Of a stretch of DNA of 42,323 nucleotides, positions 11,777 through 32,055 are shown in pieces; within the stretch, counting starts at the first letter, position 1, and the number at the start of each line of letters is the position of its first letter. The translations under genes were made by a program, and so were the position numbers. The DNA is taken from IMG/VR virus record IMGVR_UViG_3300031933_000299, positions 1 through 42,323 of that record; one strand, written 5' to 3'. The stretch is from a virus. The notes under the pieces were generated by a model. It was not told the origin of the DNA and did no database searches. It saw only the letters and a program-made list of their open reading frames with translations.

Positions 11777-12988
11777 ATGATTATTTCAACTGTTCTTTCA
11801 GAAAAACCACTCGTCGAAGGTAACAGTGTAACTCTGGCCATCTGCCGAGCAGGCACTAAAGCATATGACGAAAAGGGTAAAGAGTACACCATCACACAAT
11901 CTGCAATCGATTCAAGTGCCGATACATATTCAGGTGGAATCATCACCATCAATCACAAAGTCAAAGAAAATGGCAAGATCACAAAGTCTTGGCAAGACGG
12001 AGAGTTCATCAAAGCCACCGTGGAAGGACTTTCGCAGGCATGTGTGGATGCTATTAATTCAGCTGCTTATCGTGGTGTTTCGCAGGAATCTACTGACGCA
12101 GAGTTCGCTGACAAGAACAGCACCGATATTATCAAACTCAAAGGAACTGGTGTAACTTTTGTGTTCTATCCTGAGAATCCTGCATGTCCTTTGAATAAAG
12201 GATGTGGTGTTCCGATTGCTTCTACCATGGTAACGGCAGATGGGAACTATGAGAGACATTCTTTTGATGTAGCTGTCGAAAACAATGCAGGTACCCTTGT
12301 AAAAGTTAGTGAGATATCGGTGTACTTAGATGGTGATGAAATTGGTGATAAAGATATCCTCAAGAAAAGGATCCTGCAAGAAGCCATGTTCATAGGTGCC
12401 GGTCAGTACAAAATCTTCAATGTTGATACCTCACTCGAAACCGGTGATGTAATTCCTGCAGACAAAGAAGTTGTTCATGATGTGAATATTTCTGTATCAA
12501 TGTTAAAGAGTTTCAACTTTCCTTTAAATACCCATAATGAAAAACTTGAATCAAATACTCCTGGAGGGGTAAACATAACTGAAGCCGACCAAAGCGCAAA
12601 ACTTGAATCAACTGTCTCTGATCTCAAAACAGAGAACAAGGATCTCAAGTCCACTATCACTGAACTCCGTCAGGAGCTCAAAGAGAAGGACGGAAAGATT
12701 GAGAGCACGGTGAATGCAGCCGTGAAAGCTGCTCTGGAATCACACGACAAAGCACTCAAGGAACAGACCGAACGCGACTCTATTCTGACCGAACTCAAGT
12801 CAACCGTTTCTGATGAGACACTCGCTGGGTTCAAAGATGTACCAACATTTGCACTGAAAAGTACACTTGCAGCAATCAAGGAGAGCGCAGGGAAGCGCGT
12901 GGGAGCAAACAGCGGGACCGGTGTACAGAGCACCACAGATGAGGAGGACTATGCCTCACTGGGTGTAACATCAATCGAGGTGGAATAA
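11777..12988 (+). CDS. Prohead protease-scaffold fusion
   Basis: A 403-aa two-part protein. Residues about 1-160 resemble prohead maturation protease folds: a histidine in INHK at about residue 57, the segment WQDGEFIKATVEG, then GVSQES at about 99-104. Residues 265-350 are a charged coiled coil typical of internal scaffolds, followed by a flexible acidic tail. Protease and scaffold in one gene, with the scaffold also made separately from an internal start, is known in lambda (C/Nu3). Here a late promoter copy and a strong ribosome binding site lie exactly at the domain boundary (12511-12569). Assignment of the protease is by position and layout; catalytic residues are not certain. Confidence 0.7.
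   Translation: MIISTVLSEKPLVEGNSVTLAICRAGTKAYDEKGKEYTITQSAIDSSADTYSGGIITINHKVKENGKITKSWQDGEFIKATVEGLSQACVDAINSAAYRGVSQESTDAEFADKNSTDIIKLKGTGVTFVFYPENPACPLNKGCGVPIASTMVTADGNYERHSFDVAVENNAGTLVKVSEISVYLDGDEIGDKDILKKRILQEAMFIGAGQYKIFNVDTSLETGDVIPADKEVVHDVNISVSMLKSFNFPLNTHNEKLESNTPGGVNITEADQSAKLESTVSDLKTENKDLKSTITELRQELKEKDGKIESTVNAAVKAALESHDKALKEQTERDSILTELKSTVSDETLAGFKDVPTFALKSTLAAIKESAGKRVGANSGTGVQSTTDEEDYASLGVTSIEVE
12511..12569 (+). promoter_or_regulatory. Internal late promoter copy P3 and ribosome binding site for a scaffold-only product
   Basis: The 20-bp promoter at 12511-12530 is identical to P2 and P4 but lies inside coding sequence (encoding SFNFPLNT). It predicts a transcript start near 12553, followed by GGAGGGG at 12563-12569. 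Five bases later the in-frame codon is ATA (12575), not ATG. The product would be the coiled-coil scaffold alone (about 138 aa). Confidence 0.65.
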
Positions 12989-22984: not shown

Positions 22985-24528
22985 TACAAATACAGGCAGA
23001 CATAGCCAAAGCTCAACATGACCTCAACAAAGTCAAAGGTTCGCTCGGTGATGTTGGGGATGAAGCAGCTGTAGCCGGGAACAAAGTTCAAACATCTGGT
23101 CAAAAAATTAACGCTGTCCTTGCGTCCATGAAAATATATGCCGTGGCTGCTGCAGCTGCCCTTGGTGCAATTGGTGTCAAAGCTATACAAATTGCCGGAG
23201 ATGCGGTAGAAATAGAGAACAAGTTTGAGGCAGTATTCAAAAATACCTCGGACAGCGCAAGGAGATGGGCTGAAGACTTCTCCGACACTGTTGGTCGTTC
23301 TACTCTTGAAACATTGCAGTATCTCTCTACATTCCAGGATACATTTGTTCCGCTGGGATTTGACAGGACAGAAGCAGCACTTTTGTCAGAACAACTCACT
23401 GAGCTGTCTGTCGATCTTGCTTCTTTCAACAATATGGCAGATACTGAAACCATAACTGCATTACAGTCCGCACTGGTCGGAAACCATGAGACGATGAGAC
23501 GATATGGTGTCATAATCACTCAGACTACACTTGATCAAGAGCTCATGAACATGGGTATTGAGAAAGGAATACAGGGTGCAACTGAACAAGAGAAAGTAAT
23601 GGCACGTCTCAATATAATAATGAATTCAACCGAGGATGCGCAGGGCGATGCTGCAAGGACAGCTGATGAATATGCTAACCAGATGAGAGCATTGAAAGGC
23701 AATATACGTGATGTGATGGCAGAGGCCGGTAAGGAGGGAATGGAGGACCTGACTCAAACACTTGTTGAATTCAACGAATGGGGAACATCAGGTGGCTATG
23801 ACAACATCACAATGTTCCTGAGCGATGTTGCTTCGCTGGCCGCGGACGCTGCAAAGGGCGTCGCGATCCTGACACAGACATTTGGTGACCTGTATGGAAC
23901 ATTTGTTTCAGAAGGACCAATGCCGGAAGCAATGGGTACAAGTGGAACAATGCCAGGTGGTAATATCAGCGACTTCGTTGGTTTTTCAGATGAACAAATG
24001 ACAGAAATATACAGACAGTTTGGATACAACGAAGACGAAATCGCGGCAAAGCTGGAACACAGGAGACAGCTCATCGAGGAACAGAACGATGAGATTGATG
24101 ACCAAATCGACAAAACCAACCAGCTGGCAAACGCAACGTCATCTATTCCAGATTGGGCAGGCCATTCCGATTATATCCGTGGACAAATATCCAACAAAAG
24201 AAGTGAACTTGGTATAGAGTTTGATTCTGGCGACAGATCAACTCACATGAGCATTGATGATATCGTGAATACCGGAGTATCATCCGTTCCACAGACACAA
24301 CAGGTACAGGTTACAAGTCCAAGTATTGTATCCTCTCAATCATCACAGAGTGGGCAATCATCCATCATGACAGAAAGGATTCTAACGGATATTCTATCAA
24401 CGCTGCAGCAAGAACCACGTCAGGTTGATGTAGATGCCGATATCGAAATCAGAAACCACACAGACATCAAAGAACTTGCAAAAAAAGTAGCTGAGATTCT
24501 GCAGAGGGATATTACATATACATCATGA
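22954..24528 (+). CDS. Tail tape measure protein
   Basis: A 524-aa protein from ATG 22954 (an earlier TTG is in frame). It has an N-terminal coiled coil, an Ala-rich hydrophobic segment (about residues 49-75), then the conserved tape-measure block (EAVFKNTSDSARRWAEDFSD, LSTFQDTFVPLGF, ETMRRYGVIITQTTLDQEL; about 90-200), and a second coiled coil and Gln/Ser-rich tail. At roughly 1.5 Angstrom per residue the tail would be near 80 nm. It is short for a tape measure, so the tail is modest in length. Confidence 0.9.
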   Translation: MAGETIEKLVIQIQADIAKAQHDLNKVKGSLGDVGDEAAVAGNKVQTSGQKINAVLASMKIYAVAAAAALGAIGVKAIQIAGDAVEIENKFEAVFKNTSDSARRWAEDFSDTVGRSTLETLQYLSTFQDTFVPLGFDRTEAALLSEQLTELSVDLASFNNMADTETITALQSALVGNHETMRRYGVIITQTTLDQELMNMGIEKGIQGATEQEKVMARLNIIMNSTEDAQGDAARTADEYANQMRALKGNIRDVMAEAGKEGMEDLTQTLVEFNEWGTSGGYDNITMFLSDVASLAADAAKGVAILTQTFGDLYGTFVSEGPMPEAMGTSGTMPGGNISDFVGFSDEQMTEIYRQFGYNEDEIAAKLEHRRQLIEEQNDEIDDQIDKTNQLANATSSIPDWAGHSDYIRGQISNKRSELGIEFDSGDRSTHMSIDDIVNTGVSSVPQTQQVQVTSPSIVSSQSSQSGQSSIMTERILTDILSTLQQEPRQVDVDADIEIRNHTDIKELAKKVAEILQRDITYTS

Positions 24529-24538
24529 GGTGGACAAA

Positions 24539-25120
24539 ATGGATTTCAGGATAAAATACGATGTGCGTGCACAGAAATTCGGATACAATGCATATTCCCA
24601 TGGTGGTTCAAACTGGACATATTTAGCAGTGCCATCTGACCTCACACTTGGTAGCAACGCGGTTGTCAGTAATAGTTCACAGACAGGGGGTTCCGCGACA
24701 ATGGAACCAGAGTACAAGTTCATTATTCCAAAATCGTTTGATAATGCTGTCATAGATGGTGACATGTTCGTGGCGGCACAGGTTGAGCTACATGGGTACA
24801 CAGGCAGTTACACACACACCCAGACACTCACCCATATCTATGCAAATCTATACAAGGTAGATTCATCCGGAATAGAGACAAGTTTGCTCGAGGATCCGGA
24901 TGGAGTGGATATTCTTGGTGGAACTACCTACAGTGAGAACGACACGACGATTGTCAAGAAAATATTTGGGTGGGTACCAATACAGGACCAGTTGATCAAG
25001 CCGGACGAACGATTGGCATTCAGTATCAAACTCACGGGGTCTGGAGATAGTTTCACTTGGCTGAAATTAGATCATACAAAAGACACTGACGACACCTATG
25101 CCACCATCCCGTTTGTCTGA
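24539..25120 (+). CDS. Putative minor tail / receptor-binding protein (193 aa)
   Basis: ATG 24539 is chosen because GAGGTGG ends 6 nt before it. Beta-sandwich-like, with a Tyr/Thr/His-rich stretch (YTGSYTHTQTLTHIYANLYK) and alternating strands typical of fibre or lectin-like tail proteins. It follows the tape measure, where tip and fibre genes sit. Confidence 0.5.
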   Translation: MDFRIKYDVRAQKFGYNAYSHGGSNWTYLAVPSDLTLGSNAVVSNSSQTGGSATMEPEYKFIIPKSFDNAVIDGDMFVAAQVELHGYTGSYTHTQTLTHIYANLYKVDSSGIETSLLEDPDGVDILGGTTYSENDTTIVKKIFGWVPIQDQLIKPDERLAFSIKLTGSGDSFTWLKLDHTKDTDDTYATIPFV

Positions 25121-25129
25121 GGTATCAAT

Positions 25130-25927
25130 ATGACACTATATCCAAATATCATATACCATGCCGACACTGGAATAGAAGTGTTTTTGGACAGCCTGCAGAG
25201 GATAGGGAACGTTCGCTATGCCGACGTCGTGGACTATCATGGGAGTGGAGACGGAAACCTGAAAACGTTCATACGTTCTCAGGGACCAAGGTCAATGACA
25301 CTGGAAGGAAAGATATCGACGGACAATGAGAACACTATCAGAAGACAGTTGAACTACCTTATAGGAGAACAAGTCTATATCATGATGGGAGCCGAGGAAC
25401 TGGCTACGTTGGCAAAGATTAGGTCATGCGCTTTCAACAAAGCGGTCGGAACATATACTCCTCTAACCCTTGATGTCGTATGTGATGGGAGTTCCGAAGG
25501 TCAATTCTGGGACGGAACCGACTACTTCAGCACATCCAACTGTGCAGTTGAATCAGACGATGACTCGGTGAACGGAATCAGTGTAAGATTATACCAGTCT
25601 GGCAGTTATGTTCGTAATTTTGTTAAGCAGAGCGAATGGACATTGCCAGCAGGAGATTATATATTTTTTGCACGTGTGGTTGATCAGTACAATATTACTG
25701 ATGAAATCACCCTGGAAGTGAGGAATTATATCGATGACACGGCCATTGCTTCTGACACATATACTACAACGATGGGTGAAATTTTTCCAGAATACGCATT
25801 TGTGAAACTTGATTTTACAATAGATAGTGCTGATGACGGGGACGATGTACAATTCAAGGTAATCAAGAACACATCAAATGTGAACAATGTGTACCTTGGT
25901 GCATGGGGATTTGTGAGGACAGACTGA
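25130..25927 (+). CDS. Distal tail protein-like (265 aa)
   Basis: The N-terminal domain (residues 1-115) has the layout of Dit-type tail hub proteins (RSQGPRSMTLEGKISTDNEN, then the RRQLNYLIGEQVYI segment). The C-terminal domain (130-265) is a carbohydrate-binding-module-like beta sandwich (WTLPAGDYIFFARV..). A hub bearing a host-surface-binding module is a reasonable reading. GAGG precedes the start. Confidence 0.6.
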   Translation: MTLYPNIIYHADTGIEVFLDSLQRIGNVRYADVVDYHGSGDGNLKTFIRSQGPRSMTLEGKISTDNENTIRRQLNYLIGEQVYIMMGAEELATLAKIRSCAFNKAVGTYTPLTLDVVCDGSSEGQFWDGTDYFSTSNCAVESDDDSVNGISVRLYQSGSYVRNFVKQSEWTLPAGDYIFFARVVDQYNITDEITLEVRNYIDDTAIASDTYTTTMGEIFPEYAFVKLDFTIDSADDGDDVQFKVIKNTSNVNNVYLGAWGFVRTD

Positions 25928-26352
25928 TGCTTGCAGAACTTCTTAATATAGTGTTACCGGTTTCACAGCAGAAATCTGAAACAACAATGTCAAAGATATA
26001 TGTGATGCAGCTGTTCAAATCAGTGGACAATCTTCAGCTGACAGATACAAATTACAAACTTGTAGATGTTGATAAGTTGAAGACATTCCTCGCTCGTAAC
26101 TCAACCAGTTCAAGACAATATGTTTCTGATTCTAATGACTGTGATGATTTTGCGCTCATTCTCCTGGGAGATGTCACGAGATGGGATTCTTCACTTGCTT
26201 TCGGAATTGCATTTGTTGTGAAGGAAGATGGCGACTATCATGCTTTGAATGTATTGATATCCACACAAAAAAAGGTGTACTTGGTGGAACCTCAGTCGGA
26301 TGAAGTATTTGAGGTTCCTGAAGAGTGGGATATCAGATTTGTTTTGATGTGA
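25927..26352 (+). CDS. Putative papain/transglutaminase-fold cysteine peptidase (141 aa)
   Basis: ATG 25927 overlaps the previous stop. A likely catalytic triad is visible: C72 in SNDCDDFALILL, H105 in GDYHALNVLI and E121 in YLVEPQ, in the order and spacing of small Cys-His-acid hydrolases found in phages. It is the last gene of the late operon, after the tail tip, so it may cleave host surface layers at entry or release. The substrate is unknown. Residue identification is by eye. Confidence 0.55.
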   Translation: MLAELLNIVLPVSQQKSETTMSKIYVMQLFKSVDNLQLTDTNYKLVDVDKLKTFLARNSTSSRQYVSDSNDCDDFALILLGDVTRWDSSLAFGIAFVVKEDGDYHALNVLISTQKKVYLVEPQSDEVFEVPEEWDIRFVLM

Positions 26353-26483
26353 TGTGTTCCGTTTTGTCATGTGTCGAGGAAAATAACTTCCATATAATAT
26401 TGCTAAGTCTGTAAGGTTGGAAACTTGGATATCCGGAAGTAACATGAACTTGGCCACTACGTAGTGCTATTAAAAGAACGAAC

Positions 26484-26833
26484 TTACATAAATTCCTCGA
26501 ATTTCTCCGGATGCTTCTTGACATATTCGGACAGGACCTTCAGCATCTGTTGTTCATCGTCTTCTACTTCAAGAGCTGCTTCTGTTGTCAGGGCCATACT
26601 GCAGGATGAACAGTACTTTGCAGTAGGTCCATTCATGGTATTGCAGCGCGGACACTTTCTCGGCAACAGGTCGGATGCCGTTTCTTCTTTTTCCCTGAGG
26701 CCATAGTGTTCCAATAAGACATTGTGGGAATACCTTCCTCCTGCATTATCTCCTCCGCTTCCCGCTTTAGATTCGGGCTTATCGAAACCCCGATCTTCTC
26801 TTTCTTTGTATGCTGCATAACAGGTAGTATCAT
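26484..26833 (-). pseudogene. Leftward ribbon-helix-helix regulator with C-terminal zinc ribbon; reading frame interrupted
   Basis: The first frame (from 26833 or, better, 26818) encodes a ribbon-helix-helix start: strand KIGVSIS, helix PNLKREAEEIMQEEGI. At about 26720 the sense continues in the -1 frame: LLEHYGLREKEETASDLLPRKCPRC..., with CPRC/CSSC zinc ribbon and a helical tail to 26484. Joined, they give a normal protein of about 110 aa. Either a one-base error or mutation broke the gene, a -1 frameshift is used, or the zinc ribbon is translated alone (GGAGGAAGGT lies upstream of a TTG). It faces the operator region and its rightward counterpart. Confidence 0.6.
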
Positions 26834-26922
26834 GGTATAACTATTTAAGGCTGGTTTTAACTATAGTTAAACGTTGGTTTAACTATGGTTAACTATTTAT
26901 ATTGGTATAACCATAGTCATAC
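26832..26922. promoter_or_regulatory. Divergent promoter-operator region with four related sites
   Basis: Sites: GGTATAACTATTTAAGG (26834), GGTTTTAACTATAGTTAAAC (26853), GGTTTAACTATGGTTAAC (26876) and GGTATAACCATAGTCATAC (26904). The second holds the perfect 16-bp palindrome TTTAACTATAGTTAAA (26856-26871). TATA-like boxes for both directions lie within or beside the sites (TATTTATA 26894-26901 for rightward, TATTTAA 26842-26848 for leftward), so bound protein would block both promoters. Confidence 0.7.
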
Positions 26923-26934
26923 TTAGGTCATATC

Positions 26935-27171
26935 ATGGTATCCAAATTTATAGGCGTGAAAATGCCGGAAAACGAAGTCGCGAGAATTGAGCGCCTTGTT
27001 GATCGGGGTGAGTCGATGAATCTTAGCGATTTCATGAGACAGGCCGCACGCGAAAAACTAGCAATATGTGAAATGGAGGAAGAAAATGAGCAAAGTAAGG
27101 ATAGGCGGAACGGTGTCACCACTTGCATACAAGCAGCTTGTGGTGTCAGGAAGATCGCAGGAGTTGACTGA
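26935..27171 (+). CDS. Rightward ribbon-helix-helix regulator (78 aa)
   Basis: Strand KFIGVKMP, helix NEVARIERLVDRGE, then the MNLSDFMRQAAREKL helix: a textbook ribbon-helix-helix DNA-binding dimer. It is the first gene of the rightward early operon, with a TATA box about 35 nt upstream, so the mRNA has almost no leader. The C-terminal 35 residues overlap the next gene in another frame. It likely competes with the leftward regulator for the shared operators. Confidence 0.75.
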   Translation: MVSKFIGVKMPENEVARIERLVDRGESMNLSDFMRQAAREKLAICEMEEENEQSKDRRNGVTTCIQAACGVRKIAGVD

Positions 27172-27322
27172 GATGTCCCGGACATACAGTGGAAAACTCG
27201 AAGAGCAGATCGAGAAGTACGACCTCAGATACGACGAATCAATGGAGAACGAGTTTGCCGACGACGTTCAAGGATCCGAGGACTACCTGACAACCGTACA
27301 GAGAATCATAGGAGTGATCTGA
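27086..27322 (+). CDS. Hypothetical early protein (78 aa)
   Basis: ATG 27086 has GGAGGAAG upstream; the first 86 nt overlap the regulator gene. The N-terminal segment KVRIGGTVSPLAYKQLVVSG resembles the opening of archaeal ribbon-helix-helix or AbrB-like proteins, followed by an acidic helix. Ends in TGATG overlap with the next gene. Confidence 0.55.
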   Translation: MSKVRIGGTVSPLAYKQLVVSGRSQELTEMSRTYSGKLEEQIEKYDLRYDESMENEFADDVQGSEDYLTTVQRIIGVI

Positions 27323-27660
27323 TGGCATCCAGACGCAGCAGAGGAAGAGGTGTCACCCCGGGGACAATCCGTGGAAAAGACAAGAACTGGCTATCTGAAG
27401 GAATGGAACAGCGCAGGTACAGGTACGCTATGGATACTGCAAACGGTGCACTGAACAAAACAGAGACGTGCAAGAAGTGCGGTGGTCTTGCAGGATGTAT
27501 CAATGCAGCTGTCCTCAAGAACTTCGGTGTCAGAGCATATTGGAAGTGTACTGACTGTGGAAGAGAGTACACCAAAGAGATCTCATCGGAGAAGATGGAA
27601 CAATACTACCAGGAAGATCTTGCCAAGATGCACAGCAAGCCACAGGAGGCCGAAGCATGA
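27322..27660 (+). CDS. Zinc-ribbon protein (112 aa)
   Basis: A basic Arg-rich N-terminus is followed by a four-cysteine ribbon (CKKCGG at about 51-54 and CTDCG at about 75-78) and a charged helical tail. It overlaps both neighbours by 1-4 nt. A nucleic-acid-binding early regulator is plausible. Confidence 0.6.
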   Translation: MASRRSRGRGVTPGTIRGKDKNWLSEGMEQRRYRYAMDTANGALNKTETCKKCGGLAGCINAAVLKNFGVRAYWKCTDCGREYTKEISSEKMEQYYQEDLAKMHSKPQEAEA

Positions 27661-27872
27661 GCACTGCATTACCAGTTCCGGAACTCAATCCGGTAGCTCG
27701 CATGATGTTTCCTCGTGCACAGGACATGATCGACCAGCGCATCTGTCCGCAGTGTGGTGAAAAGATTGACCCTGTAGATGGATTCCGTGACGGATTATCA
27801 ATGAAAGAGTACATGATATCAGGCCTTTGCCAGTCGTGCCTGGACAGCGTCTCCGGAGATGATCAGCCATGA
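27657..27872 (+). CDS. Zinc-ribbon protein (71 aa)
   Basis: CPQCGEK near residue 30 and CQSC near 58 form a four-cysteine site. The ATGA start overlaps the previous stop. Function unknown. Confidence 0.6.
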   Translation: MSTALPVPELNPVARMMFPRAQDMIDQRICPQCGEKIDPVDGFRDGLSMKEYMISGLCQSCLDSVSGDDQP

Positions 27873-28012
27873 TCTCCGAGATACCTGAGATCATTGACGG
27901 GATATCCGTTGCCAGGTGTGTCTGTCCTCATGGACACACATTCAATGTAGCATGGGCCTGCCGGCACAACAGTCTGTACTGTCCTAAATGTAACGAAGGG
28001 GTGGAAGCATGA
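27869..28012 (+). CDS. Small Cys/His zinc protein (47 aa)
   Basis: ATG 27869 overlaps the previous stop. Cys and His at CVCPHGH, C, H, and CPKC (residues 17-41) indicate one or two zinc sites. The next gene starts within its last codons (GCATGAG). Confidence 0.55.
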   Translation: MISEIPEIIDGISVARCVCPHGHTFNVAWACRHNSLYCPKCNEGVEA

Positions 28013-28170
28013 GTGCAGCACCCTTTGAAATGATTGGTCCCGAGAGAATTGAAGCCATTCGCCAAGCCAAGCACGATAATCCATCTGTCACCTATAAGGA
28101 TCTGAGAATGATCCTTGGTGAGTCAGAGTATGCTATCGCAAAGGCACTGAAAGGCTACACTCCTGAGTGA
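28009..28170 (+). CDS. Small helix-turn-helix protein (53 aa)
   Basis: ATG 28009 overlaps the previous stop, with GGGGTGG upstream. The segment NPSVTYKDLRMILGESEYAI (residues 24-43) reads as a helix-turn-helix. It is the last gene before the structured non-coding region. Confidence 0.55.
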   Translation: MSAAPFEMIGPERIEAIRQAKHDNPSVTYKDLRMILGESEYAIAKALKGYTPE

Positions 28171-28182
28171 TAACTATGATCG

Positions 28183-28440
28183 CCCCCGGACAACTCCACT
28201 CCCACATAACCCCAATCCAACCAACATGTCCGGGGGATCTACCTCCAGACACGGAAAAATGAATCCTCCCGCTTGCCAGTGCGATAACTGGCACATTCTG
28301 CCACATCACAAAGCGCAATTGGTGCGTACCAACCGCGAAAGCGGCGGGTAACCTGTTCGAATCAGGTATGTGGCTTAGGCATGTGGTGGCTCTTTTCTAT
28401 ACCACCCAACGAAACCCCACTCCCACTGCCACCACATGCC
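28183..28440 (+). ncRNA. Structured non-coding region: two long hairpins flanking a tRNA-like element with a tetraloop in place of the anticodon arm
   Basis: No convincing frame exists in 28171-28448. H1: CCCCCGGACA (28183-28192) pairs with TGTCCGGGGG (28227-28236), with a 34-nt loop containing no G. H2: TGCCAGT/ACTGGCA (28274-28280, 28287-28293). The tRNA-like part has acceptor GCCACAT/ATGTGGC (28300-28306, 28368-28374), a D-arm GCGC-AATTGGT-GCGT (28313-28327) and a T-arm ACCTG-TTCGAAT-CAGGT (28351-28367). Where the anticodon arm belongs there is CCGC-GAAA-GCGG (28333-28344), a GNRA tetraloop. H4: 13 bp GGCATGTGGTGGC (28378-28390) with GCCACCACATGCC (28428-28440), loop 37 nt. The H1 and H4 loops share CCACTCCCAC (28196, 28417). 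The strand is inferred from the GAAA loop, the TTCGAAT T-loop and the operon direction. Whether it is a separate RNA or an mRNA element is unknown. Confidence 0.65.
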
Positions 28441-28448
28441 AAAACAAA

Positions 28449-28769
28449 ATGAAAAGAAGTGATAGATTGAAAGATTGTGAAACAACTGTGACAATTGATC
28501 TAGCCAGATTCCCCCGGGAATATTGGACAGGATCACAGAATCCATTTTTGAAAGTAGATGAACACCAGCTCAACGACATAGAGTCGTGGATCAAGAGCAT
28601 GGTCCCAGCCAGTGATGAGTACTGTGTAGAACTAATTGGCAGATGTCCCGGACCTGTCTCACTGTATATCGGTGCACTCCTTCGTGACATGAACTGTCAG
28701 AAGTTGACCTGCATCAATCCAGGAAGAGGAACATTCACGGTATGGGATTACACGGGGGCAGGAGAATGA
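28449..28769 (+). CDS. Hypothetical early protein (106 aa)
   Basis: ATG 28449 lies 8 nt after the 13-bp hairpin and has no ribosome binding site, so its translation may depend on the structured leader. Mixed alpha/beta, with the segment CPGPVSLYIGALLRDMNCQK then CINPGRGTFTVWDYTG. I do not recognise the family. It overlaps the next start by 4 nt. Confidence 0.55.
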   Translation: MKRSDRLKDCETTVTIDLARFPREYWTGSQNPFLKVDEHQLNDIESWIKSMVPASDEYCVELIGRCPGPVSLYIGALLRDMNCQKLTCINPGRGTFTVWDYTGAGE

Positions 28770-29131
28770 GCGAAATGATAGAAGAAATACAAGCCATCAA
28801 GGAACTCAAACTCCAAATGAAACTTGAACTCGGTGATCTGCCTGAACAGCGTGCTCTCCTGGAGGAAAAGATGAGAGACATTATGGATCCATTCATCGTT
28901 CGAATACAGGAACACGAAGATAACATCCGTAATATCACACTGATGAACGGGACGTCCTACAAAGGTGATGATGGAAGTAAGGTCACTTTCCGGAAAGAAC
29001 ATGTCAGAACATCATGGGATACAAAAGCACTCGAAGGATATGCAGCCGGTGGCCATGATGAGATATTGCAGTTCAAGAAGGAGACGGTTGTCAAACCCAA
29101 TGTGAGTATTTCAATTGCTGAGGTAGAATAA
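28766..29131 (+). CDS. Recombination-associated protein upstream of recT-like gene (121 aa)
   Basis: Start at 28766 (GGAG upstream, ATGA overlap). Residues 1-60 are a coiled coil; the C-terminal end (SWDTKALEGYAAGGHDEILQ followed by FKKE) is a pattern found in phage proteins encoded beside single-strand annealing proteins. Possibly an accessory or nuclease-modulating partner. The assignment is by context. Confidence 0.5.
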   Translation: MSEMIEEIQAIKELKLQMKLELGDLPEQRALLEEKMRDIMDPFIVRIQEHEDNIRNITLMNGTSYKGDDGSKVTFRKEHVRTSWDTKALEGYAAGGHDEILQFKKETVVKPNVSISIAEVE

Positions 29132-29147
29132 TAAGAGGTGAAAAATA

Positions 29148-30062
29148 ATGAAATTGGATAAGAATGCGATAATTCCAGCACTGGAAAAAAACAAGGCAAT
29201 GAAAGCCAACGATGATGTATATTCACTCATTGTCGATGGTGTCAAATGTGGAATTGATTTCAAGAAAAACGAGTTCTTCTGGATGGACGATCTCACCAGA
29301 ATGTCTGATGATAGTAATTGTGAAGAGCTCAAGAAGTTCAAGGAAATCTGCCTTGGTGCAATGTTTTCTAAGAATAAGAGTAGTGGTGAACCTTCCAAGT
29401 CTGCCCCATCTGATGCAACCGACCAAAGCGCAAGTGTGGAGGAGACTGATGAAGAAGGATACACCAATACAGAATATGACAATCCACCACATGAATCTTT
29501 TGTACCTGCACCAGTCACACAGAGACAAGTTGCAGCCGCACATAGCGTGGACTTCACACCCGACCAGATCGATACGATAAGGAACACTGTTGCCAAAGGT
29601 GCAACTGATGATGAGCTGGCAATGTTCATGCACCTGGCAAATACATATGGCCTTGATCCGTTCCTGAAGGAGATCTTCTATTCCAGCCAGATGAAAACCA
29701 TCATCACATCGAGAGATGGGTACCTGAAGGTTGCACAGAGAGATCCTGAATTCGATGGAATTCAGTCCATGGCAGTATGTGAGAATGATGACTTCTCAAT
29801 TGACATGGTGAACAATGTTGTCAATCACTCGTTTGGAAAGGGTGACCGGGGGTCTGTAATCGGTGCGTGGGCTGTCTGTTACAGGAAAGGACGCAGGCCA
29901 GTTATTGCATATGCTGACTATAATGAGTACAACAAGAACAACCCGATCTGGAAGACTTACAAGAGTGCAATGTGCTGTAAGGTTGCAGAGGTTTTTGCCT
30001 TGAAGAGACAGTTTGGCATTAGTGGTCTGGTGACTCAGGAAGAGATGGGGGTGGAAGCATGA
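29148..30062 (+). CDS. RecT/Bet-family single-strand annealing protein
   Basis: At 304 aa. After an acidic N-terminal linker (residues 1-135), the RecT/Bet core is clear: LANTYGLDPFLKEIFYSSQM, ITSRDGYLKVAQRDPEFDGI, GSVIGAWAVCYRKGRRPVIA and the C-terminal YKSAMCCKVAEVFALKRQFG. Such proteins anneal complementary single strands during phage recombination and repair. A partner exonuclease is not adjacent; the PD-(D/E)XK-like protein at 32723 or the ERCC4-like one at 35203 are candidates. GAGGTGA precedes the start. Confidence 0.85.
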   Translation: MKLDKNAIIPALEKNKAMKANDDVYSLIVDGVKCGIDFKKNEFFWMDDLTRMSDDSNCEELKKFKEICLGAMFSKNKSSGEPSKSAPSDATDQSASVEETDEEGYTNTEYDNPPHESFVPAPVTQRQVAAAHSVDFTPDQIDTIRNTVAKGATDDELAMFMHLANTYGLDPFLKEIFYSSQMKTIITSRDGYLKVAQRDPEFDGIQSMAVCENDDFSIDMVNNVVNHSFGKGDRGSVIGAWAVCYRKGRRPVIAYADYNEYNKNNPIWKTYKSAMCCKVAEVFALKRQFGISGLVTQEEMGVEA

Positions 30063-30181
30063 CCAAAAAGTCATACCAAATCAAGCGTGAACGCTTCAGC
30101 CCATTCATCCACGATGAAATTGAAGGCATGGTAGAAAAGCGCAGGCAAGCTGCAATTGACAATGGAGTGATAAAAGAGTAA
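30059..30181 (+). CDS. Small basic protein (40 aa)
   Basis: The start overlaps the recT-like stop (GCATGA, with GGGGGTGG upstream). Basic and helical. The stop codon lies in the left arm of the terminator hairpin. Confidence 0.5.
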   Translation: MTKKSYQIKRERFSPFIHDEIEGMVEKRRQAAIDNGVIKE

Positions 30182-30208
30182 TTTTTTGTAAGTTACTCTT
30201 TCTTTTTT
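30173..30208 (+). terminator. Hairpin plus T-tract terminator
   Basis: AAAGAGTAA (30173-30181) pairs perfectly with TTACTCTTT (30193-30201), followed by CTTTTTT. It ends the recombination gene block; the next genes would need read-through or a promoter of their own. Confidence 0.6.
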
Positions 30209-30229
30209 GATGTAACGGAGAGTTAAACA

Positions 30230-30286
30230 ATGACAACACAAATAGAAAAACATCAGAACGCAATTGAATATCTGAAGGAGAGATAA
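30230..30286 (+). CDS. Putative 18-aa peptide
   Basis: ATG 30230 has CGGAG upstream. The frame ends with GGAGAGATAA, which supplies the binding site for the gene at 30291. It may be a leader for coupling. Confidence 0.35.
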   Translation: MTTQIEKHQNAIEYLKER

Positions 30287-30290
30287 ATAA

Positions 30291-31028
30291 ATGAAATTAA
30301 TATATGTAGCTGGAGCATACACAAGCAACCCATTAAAAAACATGGAAATTGCAGAAAAAGCAAGCATTGACTTAATACGCAATGGATTTGCTGTTTTTAC
30401 CCCCCATAAGAACTTTTACGATTATCAAAAGTACGAAGATGTAGATTATGAAACATATCTTCAAATCGACTTTGATATTATTTCAAGATGTGATGCCGTT
30501 TACGTTCTTGATAACTGGAATGAATCTCCAGGAACAAAAAGAGAAATAGAGTACTGTATTTCAGTGGGTATTCCGGTTTTGTACCAATCTGTTTTTAATG
30601 CGCGTGATTTGTTGCCAGAAAGTGTTTCTGAAAATAAAGAAGAGGAAATACGCACAGAAGCCATTAAACATTATGGCAAACCTGCTCAGGTTTTGAAGTG
30701 TATTGAAGAACTTGCAGAACTTCAAATTGAACTCATACAGAGCCTCGATACAATGGTAAACGAGGAAAACAAACCATGGTGTCATTTACACCAGATTGAG
30801 CAAGAAGCCCGATGCATATGGCATTGGACACAAGAAATCAATCCAAAGGATATCACCATGTATGATGATATCCAAGCGGACAAAGTTGTTTCTGAACTCG
30901 CCGACGTCTCCATCACAACCTCTCAAATGAAGAAAATATTCACCACCTCGGACGAGTTCGAGAAGGTAAAACAAGCAAAGTTGAGTAGACTTGTTGAGAG
31001 GATGAACGGGGATGGTGATTCTCAATGA
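30291..31028 (+). CDS. DUF4406/deoxyribosyltransferase-like domain fused to a MazG-like domain
   Basis: Residues 1-105 form a Rossmann-like nucleoside 2-deoxyribosyltransferase/DUF4406 domain: GAYTSNP near residue 8, FTPHKN near 42, and DNWNESPGTKREIEYC near 75-90 with the acidic residue expected for base exchange. Residues about 125-240 are all-helical, with KCIEELAELQIELIQ and KVVSELADVSITTSQM. These are the E-x2-E and E-x2-D pairs of MazG-type NTP pyrophosphatases. The fusion suggests nucleotide-pool clean-up or modified-base metabolism during replication. Both activities are inferred from motifs. Confidence 0.7.
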   Translation: MKLIYVAGAYTSNPLKNMEIAEKASIDLIRNGFAVFTPHKNFYDYQKYEDVDYETYLQIDFDIISRCDAVYVLDNWNESPGTKREIEYCISVGIPVLYQSVFNARDLLPESVSENKEEEIRTEAIKHYGKPAQVLKCIEELAELQIELIQSLDTMVNEENKPWCHLHQIEQEARCIWHWTQEINPKDITMYDDIQADKVVSELADVSITTSQMKKIFTTSDEFEKVKQAKLSRLVERMNGDGDSQ

Positions 31029-31831
31029 TTGCATGTACCGTTTGCCCCACATGTAGAAGAGAGACCAACACCGACCATATCAGCTACCACGCAAAAACCA
31101 TCAACGGAACACTGAATGAGATAACCACGTGGAGATGCAGTGAATGTGATATTTTTTTCGTGGAACGAGTTGAAAAAATAAGCACAGTGTATCTGTTGTC
31201 ACCCGTGACTACCGCTCTCAGTTCACCTGAAATTCCCACGGAGGAAGAAGTCCAGCAACATATCAAAGAAAACACTTACACCTGCTCGAAGTGTGGCAAA
31301 GAATTCGTTGCCGATGCAGATGTGGAACCATGTGAACTCGAAAACAAAGTCGTTTGTCATGACTGCTACAATGTGGCCTACCAAGAAGACAGGGGTGGAA
31401 CTCAACCAGACGATGATCAATTCCTTTGCGCATACTGTGGCACTCTCAACGATGCTTCTGTCATATACTACAGTGATGATGGCCTGAAAATCTGTGCTGC
31501 GTGCAACGATCAGAAAGACAGATCATGGACAGATGCACCCGTGGAGCAAGAACCACCTGAACCAGAATACGTCCCGCTTCCAGATTCCAGAACAGTATCC
31601 TATTGCATAGACGAGGACACCATCAAACTGCAGTACAAAGGCAGTGACTGTAATGCCTACGCTTCTGATATGATTTGGGATATAGTTGATTCCCCACAAT
31701 CCAAATGGATGTCACGGATTGATGAGATACTGGCAGATGAAAAAAACCGTATCCTGAAAGCAAGTGCATTGAATCAGCTGTGTAAGGCAGTGAGCAAAGG
31801 AATTGTGAAGATTCCGGGAAGTGATGAGTGA
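31025..31831 (+). CDS. Multi-zinc-ribbon protein (268 aa)
   Basis: Three or more Cys-pair zinc sites: CPTC/CSEC (residues 8-39), CSKCGK/CHDC (about 87-118) and CAYCG/CAAC (about 139-160). A C-terminal helical domain (about 200-268) follows. No catalytic motif seen. It overlaps the MazG-fusion stop. Probably binds nucleic acid or proteins. Confidence 0.6.
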   Translation: MIACTVCPTCRRETNTDHISYHAKTINGTLNEITTWRCSECDIFFVERVEKISTVYLLSPVTTALSSPEIPTEEEVQQHIKENTYTCSKCGKEFVADADVEPCELENKVVCHDCYNVAYQEDRGGTQPDDDQFLCAYCGTLNDASVIYYSDDGLKICAACNDQKDRSWTDAPVEQEPPEPEYVPLPDSRTVSYCIDEDTIKLQYKGSDCNAYASDMIWDIVDSPQSKWMSRIDEILADEKNRILKASALNQLCKAVSKGIVKIPGSDE

Positions 31832-32055
31832 TGCCACTTGAAATCACCCTAGAAGAGTCACAGAGACTGCGCGATGTCATCAAAAACAACAGCGGTACAG
31901 GAACATTCAGGACACAATCAAAAGACCCTCGCATCAGAAACAGAGTATTGTTTTCGTACCTTGTGAACCGCAGCATTTCAAAAACGAATCGAAGATGTGG
32001 TCATTCTGTACATGTTGTAAGAGACATTTTGAAAAAGGAGGGTGTGATTAGATGA
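31831..32055 (+). CDS. Small HTH-like protein (74 aa)
   Basis: The start at 31831 overlaps the previous stop (TGATG). The C-terminal part (SISKTNRRCGHSVHVVRDIL followed by KKEGVI) has the helix-turn-helix form seen also at 32207 and 5814. No family name assigned. Confidence 0.55.
   Translation: MPLEITLEESQRLRDVIKNNSGTGTFRTQSKDPRIRNRVLFSYLVNRSISKTNRRCGHSVHVVRDILKKEGVIR

Follow-up and report, generated by a model that had tools for sequence, protein, structure and literature searches.

The punctuation of mRNAs by tRNAs is a textbook feature of mitochondria, and the acceptor/T-arm minihelix is the part of the molecule that tRNA-processing enzymes recognise. In plant mitochondria, tRNA-like structures known as t-elements occur in the UTRs of mRNAs (Forner et al. 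2007, cited in PMC4368725). Enzymes that process tRNAs are reported or proposed to set mRNA ends at them, with a role of RNase P that is debated (PMC4368725). The tRNase Z of Haloferax cuts a tRNA-like structure in pre-5S rRNA, as related in the citation of Holzle et al. 2008 in PMC3296008. RNase P substrates include phage M3 RNA and C4 RNA, as well as polycistronic mRNAs in E. coli (PMC11143913), and plant RNA viruses carry 3' tRNA-like structures (named in PMC11143913). In the open literature searched, we found no description of a conserved, anticodon-less tRNA-derived family in archaeal viruses or chromosomes. Here, we analyse an element of this kind in an intergenic gap of the window, that is, the whole 42,323-nucleotide stretch of viral DNA under study, together with its relatives.

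An anticodon-less tRNA-like fold in the window

The element, its parts and its two flanking genes are on the + strand of the window. The element lies between a 53-aa ORF (28009..28170, with the stop at 28170), the last gene 5' of it, and a gene of about 100 codons (28467..28769). The 278-nt gap of the preliminary description (28171-28448) is real, strongly structured and folds as described there, its minimum free energy (MFE) being -93.05 kcal/mol against -65.5 +/- 4.5 in dinucleotide shuffles (z -6.17, 0/200); its end needs correction. LKDCE..., read from TTG 28467, aligns with MKDCE... of a related virus (locus L025), and the downstream gene probably starts at this TTG, so that the gap is nearer 28171-28466.

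The tRNA-like core (28300..28374) is itself more stable than its dinucleotide shuffles (z -4.77, 0/200). A perfect 7-bp acceptor (28300-28306/28368-28374) is stacked on a perfect 5-bp T-arm with a TTCRA loop (ACCTG-TTCGAAT-CAGGT, 28351-28367); the D-arm (GCGC..GCGT, 28313-28327) is preceded by four extra nucleotides, and CCA is not encoded, as first noted. The loop of the D-arm has GG. The D- to T-arm spacing is exactly 23 nt, the canonical length of segment 26-48, which leaves no room for an intron and rules out an archaeal intron-containing tRNA. These 23 nt, where an anticodon arm with its variable loop would be expected, form a GAAA-capped hairpin (28327-28350). We found no anticodon stem-loop with U33, since ACCAACCGCGAAAGCGGCGGGTA has no 27-43 stem and lacks U33; ARAGORN finds no tRNA gene at the element, and Rfam gives no match at gathering and no tRNA match up to E = 10. 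The GAAA hairpin said to replace the anticodon arm is confirmed. A blind scan for a perfect T-arm plus acceptor had no match in 2.66 Mb of shuffled sequence.

The 10-bp and 13-bp flanking hairpins reported at the outset are also present. H1 (28183..28236; 28183-28192/28227-28236) has a 10-bp stem and a G-free, C-rich loop, and is followed shortly by TACCTCC (28240..28246). H3 (28378..28440; 28378-28390/28428-28440), 3 nt 3' of the acceptor, has a 13-bp stem, longer than that of any other perfect hairpin detected across the window, and carries TTCTATACCACCC...AACCCC in its loop. Between H1 and the core is a third hairpin, TGCCAGT-GCGATA-ACTGGCA (28274..28293), ending 6 nt 5' of the acceptor. 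The sharing of sequence by the two loops holds as a 10-nt match within the window, where CCACTCCCAC occurs exactly twice (28196 and 28417), but it is not kept in the relatives. Two functional suggestions found no support. Pairing of the C-rich loops with G-rich ribosome binding sites finds no + strand match in the window to GTGGGAGTGG or GGGTGGTA, and the alternative pairing through the repeated ATGTGG, proposed as a switch, is 22 kcal/mol worse when forced (-37.4 vs -59.8 kcal/mol), the repeat not being common to the relatives.

Several observations concern the surroundings of the element. The product of 28467-28769 is predicted to fold as beta-alpha-beta-alpha-beta-beta (pLDDT 80) and has no sequence or fold match; its identity as a Csx3 ring nuclease, which was considered, is unsupported by HMM or Foldseek. 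In a phage GenBank collection, window positions 24001-32000 had no DNA match and the downstream protein had none either. A palindrome cluster on GTTTAACTATGGTTAAC, 5' of the operon (26857-26917), is perhaps an operator, and TTTCAACTTTCCTTTAAATAC, repeated at window positions 12511 and 19340 and partly matched in L046 at 5588, resembles a shared archaeal promoter.

Relatives in viruses, proviruses and chromosomes

A structured element also occupies this site in related viruses and proviruses, whose hosts are Methanolobus and its relatives (Methanosarcinaceae); the order is zinc-ribbon or small gene, element, ~100-aa gene. The window is from an archaeal virus, as first supposed, and one of methanogens; the host genus is named by terminase matches in genome contigs. 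Besides a near-identical copy of the window locus (L002 in G001), there are two other full-size versions, L025 and L048, and the stems of the three, including those of H1, all differ. L025 comes from G005, a virus (also represented by G002) that was reached via terminase relatives; the upstream genes share 70% DNA identity with those of the window and the downstream gene product 48% protein identity. Its gap (L025 2343-2586) contains H1, again followed by TACCTCC, the T-arm TCCGG-TTCGACT-CCGGA, an acceptor weakened by T-T and A-C mismatches and a 12-bp H3 with a stem entirely unlike that of the window; the MFE fold of L025 is not tRNA-like. L048, found among 112 genomes of the same family with the downstream protein as query, has its parts in the same order: H1 with a stop codon in the loop, an acceptor (TGATGAT/ATCATCA) enclosing a pair of small arms, and an H3 of 12 bp. 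The stems are perfect in the window and in L048, and the H3 loop keeps TTCTRTACCACCC in all three full-size versions. Scanning IMG/VR for this loop motif returned as real only the loci already known, the other matches having no flanking stem; in the 112 family genomes the only match, L060, is the L048 locus. Relatives of the gene after next (L010, L011) were too distant to inform. On the reverse strand of L048, a 49-aa ORF (1345-1494, MSSSITSVFDD...GLLRK) starting from an ATGA overlap spans the whole structured region; no such frame is present in the window.

With the upstream zinc-ribbon protein as query, further loci were found; the provirus that contains the one in G055 also has terminase and Mu-F-like genes. 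Ten of the loci (L098-L103, L105-L107 and L110) carry minimal versions. These consist of a 7-nt acceptor, a 3-bp D-arm with a loop ending in GG, and a T-arm, the anticodon arm being absent; the layout is ACTCCGG, GAC-NNNNGG-GTC, four linker nucleotides, the T-arm and CCGGAGC, then H3, and the acceptor has a terminal A-C mismatch. In the minimal elements ACCTC(C) is simply the 3' arm of H1, for L101 and L102 as judged by reading the sequence, and an anti-Shine-Dalgarno reading of TACCTCC was rejected on this account. RNAalifold recovered the fold by itself from the ten proviral elements (acceptor, D-arm, T-arm and H3), and the T-stem shows compensatory changes. In another related provirus (L104 in G064:C51, reverse orientation, 1967-2206), genuine tRNA-Thr(TGT) and tRNA-Gln(TTG) genes, as called by ARAGORN, stand at the place of the element and are followed by the same kind of H3. 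The ~100-aa gene was found wherever a viral-locus element was found, and is gone together with it in L108 and L109.

Viruses are not the only place where the fold occurs. When 186 genomes of the order were scanned with a covariance model built from the minimal set (R1), the ten known elements scored 72-98 bits, and new ones (L142-L148) followed at 21-37 bits. In all, nine additional elements lie between genes of chromosomes in this archaeal order; two of the nine are second copies in a gene row, one in L142 and one in L144, each 5' of the next paralogous gene. The new loci, which have no recognised viral genes, have the element between or ahead of co-directional genes, directly 5' of genes for probable secreted, repeat-rich proteins, and each element is followed by an H3, with a short loop unrelated to the others. 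L148 also lacks the D-arm. In four of these loci (L143, L145, L146 and L147) the upstream gene, which is lipoprotein-like, ends inside the fold, with its stop codon in the D- to T-arm linker. Those checked among the weak R1 and R2 matches (L123, L125-L134, L149 and L150) proved to be ordinary tRNAs, and a 394-genome sample of the phylum held no further member. The window element had no match to model R2 at E <= 5 and is tied to the minimal family by synteny and shared architecture only.

Stem conservation was examined in two sets. In an alignment of 17 elements, 97% of the cells are paired and both sides change in 13 of the 20 pairs (46 cells), which none of 500 shuffles reaches; because the alignment was fitted to the model, the slid controls, with at most 7 double-sided cells, matter most. 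Among ten representatives including the window, 172 of 179 cells in the acceptor, T-arm and H3 stems are paired, and none of 2000 shuffles exceeded 121; this is a supportive result only, as the stems were chosen by eye. Compensatory base-pair changes beyond the controls thus occur in the relatives' stems, as in a structured RNA under selection, and the central proposal of the preliminary description, a structured RNA with an anticodon-less tRNA-like fold, is borne out.

Probable punctuation of polycistronic mRNA and its alternatives

With a probability of about 0.6, we regard the elements as tRNA-derived mRNA punctuation, cut by tRNase Z and possibly by RNase P, that leaves a hairpin-capped downstream mRNA. 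The acceptor and T-arm are retained (weakened in L025), and the anticodon arm, in L148 also the D-arm, is lost or replaced; it is because the minihelix known to processing enzymes is kept, the decoding part lost and H3 close by that tRNase Z-type punctuation is favoured. As in t-elements, a tRNA-like fold lies between cistrons or in a UTR, and an acceptor/T-arm helix with no CCA 3' of the acceptor, in the elements examined, makes for a putative tRNase Z substrate. The operon would be transcribed as one mRNA, in which the minihelix, with the D/T elbow where kept, would be recognised by the host tRNase Z, the tRNA 3' endonuclease; in the viral cases RNase P might recognise it also, as an optional step. 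A cut just 3' of the acceptor and discriminator would divide the transcript into an upstream and a downstream mRNA. Since H3 begins within 1-7 nt (mostly 3-4) 3' of the acceptor nearly everywhere, the new 5' end of the downstream mRNA would then have a hairpin only a few nucleotides away, which may protect it. In several viral loci, a hairpin just 5' of the acceptor would likewise cap the 3' end of the upstream mRNA. Splitting of the operon mRNA by RNase P and tRNase Z, one of the functions suggested from the window alone, is thus the one that fits best, although the cutting itself is something we infer. The covariation of the stems, the fold that RNAalifold gives for the minimal set, the tRNA genes of L104, the chromosomal elements with their second copies and the Haloferax precedent also speak for it. 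Against it stand the A-C mismatch of the minimal elements, the failure of R2 to score the window, the weak acceptor and non-tRNA-like MFE fold of L025, and the debate over RNase P at plant t-elements. Moreover, in the four loci whose upstream gene ends within the element, a cut by RNase P would take away the stop codon; either tRNase Z would have to act alone there, or the upstream mRNA would have to be given up deliberately.

An uncut, cis-acting leader or intercistronic structure, in which the fold and H3 control downstream translation or stability by binding ribosomes or a protein, seems to us unlikely, though it accommodates several observations: the element ends shortly 5' of the downstream start codon, the H3 loop motif is kept in the three full-size versions and the upstream stop codon lies inside the fold in several chromosomal cases. 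However, it leaves unexplained both the retention of the acceptor and T-arm and the genuine tRNA genes in the same slot of L104, and the H3 loops of the chromosomal elements are short and unrelated.

We are more doubtful still of a tRNA mimic acting in trans, in which the excised RNA would itself do the work, for instance as a decoy bound by tRNA-cutting defence nucleases or by tRNA-modifying or tRNA-binding proteins. The minimal set keeps the D-loop GG and T-loop TTCRA that form the elbow while the remaining D-loop letters vary, its T-arm and acceptor are alike host tRNA-Glu at 24/30 nt, and there is no anticodon to cut. Yet the elements also lie between chromosomal genes, sometimes twice per gene row, L148 does without the D-arm, and H3 always follows.

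Decaying tRNA genes with no present function are a very improbable source of the family. The real tRNAs of L104, the weak acceptor of L025 and the 5' acceptor half of the window, which matches the tRNA-Thr of L104 in 6/7 nt, would suit decay, but the covariation in the minimal set and across the 17 elements already disfavours it, as do the perfect stems of the window and L048 and the presence of elements in unrelated chromosomal loci. Finally, a coding sequence or DNA-level element (a small ORF, or a recombination or attachment site) can be given hardly any credence: the 49-aa ORF of L048 and a 65-aa frame of L025 (from ATG 2342, or listed from 2315) run through the region, and the minimal elements resemble tRNA-Glu, tRNA genes being common attachment sites, but no frame is common to the window, L025, L048 and the minimal set, the elements lie inside the provirus operon rather than at its ends, and the stems of the 17-element set use G-U pairs, which fits RNA.

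In a wider reading, anticodon-less tRNA mimics may be movable cut marks in polycistronic mRNA, used by archaeal viruses and at chromosomal loci of the same order (not flagged viral), in several lineages, with unrelated stems and a 5' hairpin cap; to this wider notion, a prokaryotic tRNA punctuation of mRNA, we give even odds. The elements would have originated from tRNA genes, and the unrelated stem sequences of the lineages perhaps reflect independent origins. Such a family would show how tRNA genes turn into mRNA-processing signals and would explain unequal expression of neighbouring genes in these operons. It would also offer a substrate series for archaeal tRNase Z and RNase P, from true tRNA through full tRNA-like fold and D-arm plus T-arm to bare minihelix.

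Comparison with described systems

Virus-encoded tRNA genes, two of which occupy the slot in L104, resemble the element in the acceptor, D- and T-arm; in contrast to them, the element has no anticodon arm and hence no decoding function. The 3' tRNA-like structures of plant RNA viruses are likewise viral mimics of tRNA without decoding, but they are located at genome 3' ends and are often pseudoknotted, whereas the element is intercistronic in archaeal DNA viruses. M3 and C4 RNAs and the E. coli mRNAs are phage or operon RNAs that serve as substrates of the tRNA 5' enzyme; they are bacterial, however, and no conserved anticodon-less tRNA fold is described for them (PMC11143913). The haloarchaeal pre-5S structure (Holzle et al. 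2008, cited in PMC3296008) is both archaeal and tRNA-like, and its cut by tRNase Z makes the 5' end of the downstream RNA; it belongs to an rRNA operon, whereas the present elements lie in mRNA operons, and the two are not known to be related. Plant t-elements, as portrayed in PMC4368725, offer a functional parallel, with a tRNA-like fold in the UTR of an mRNA. They are organellar and of no known homology, whereas the elements described here lie in operons of archaeal viruses and chromosomes and form a conserved family whose stems covary and which has a hairpin at a fixed place downstream.
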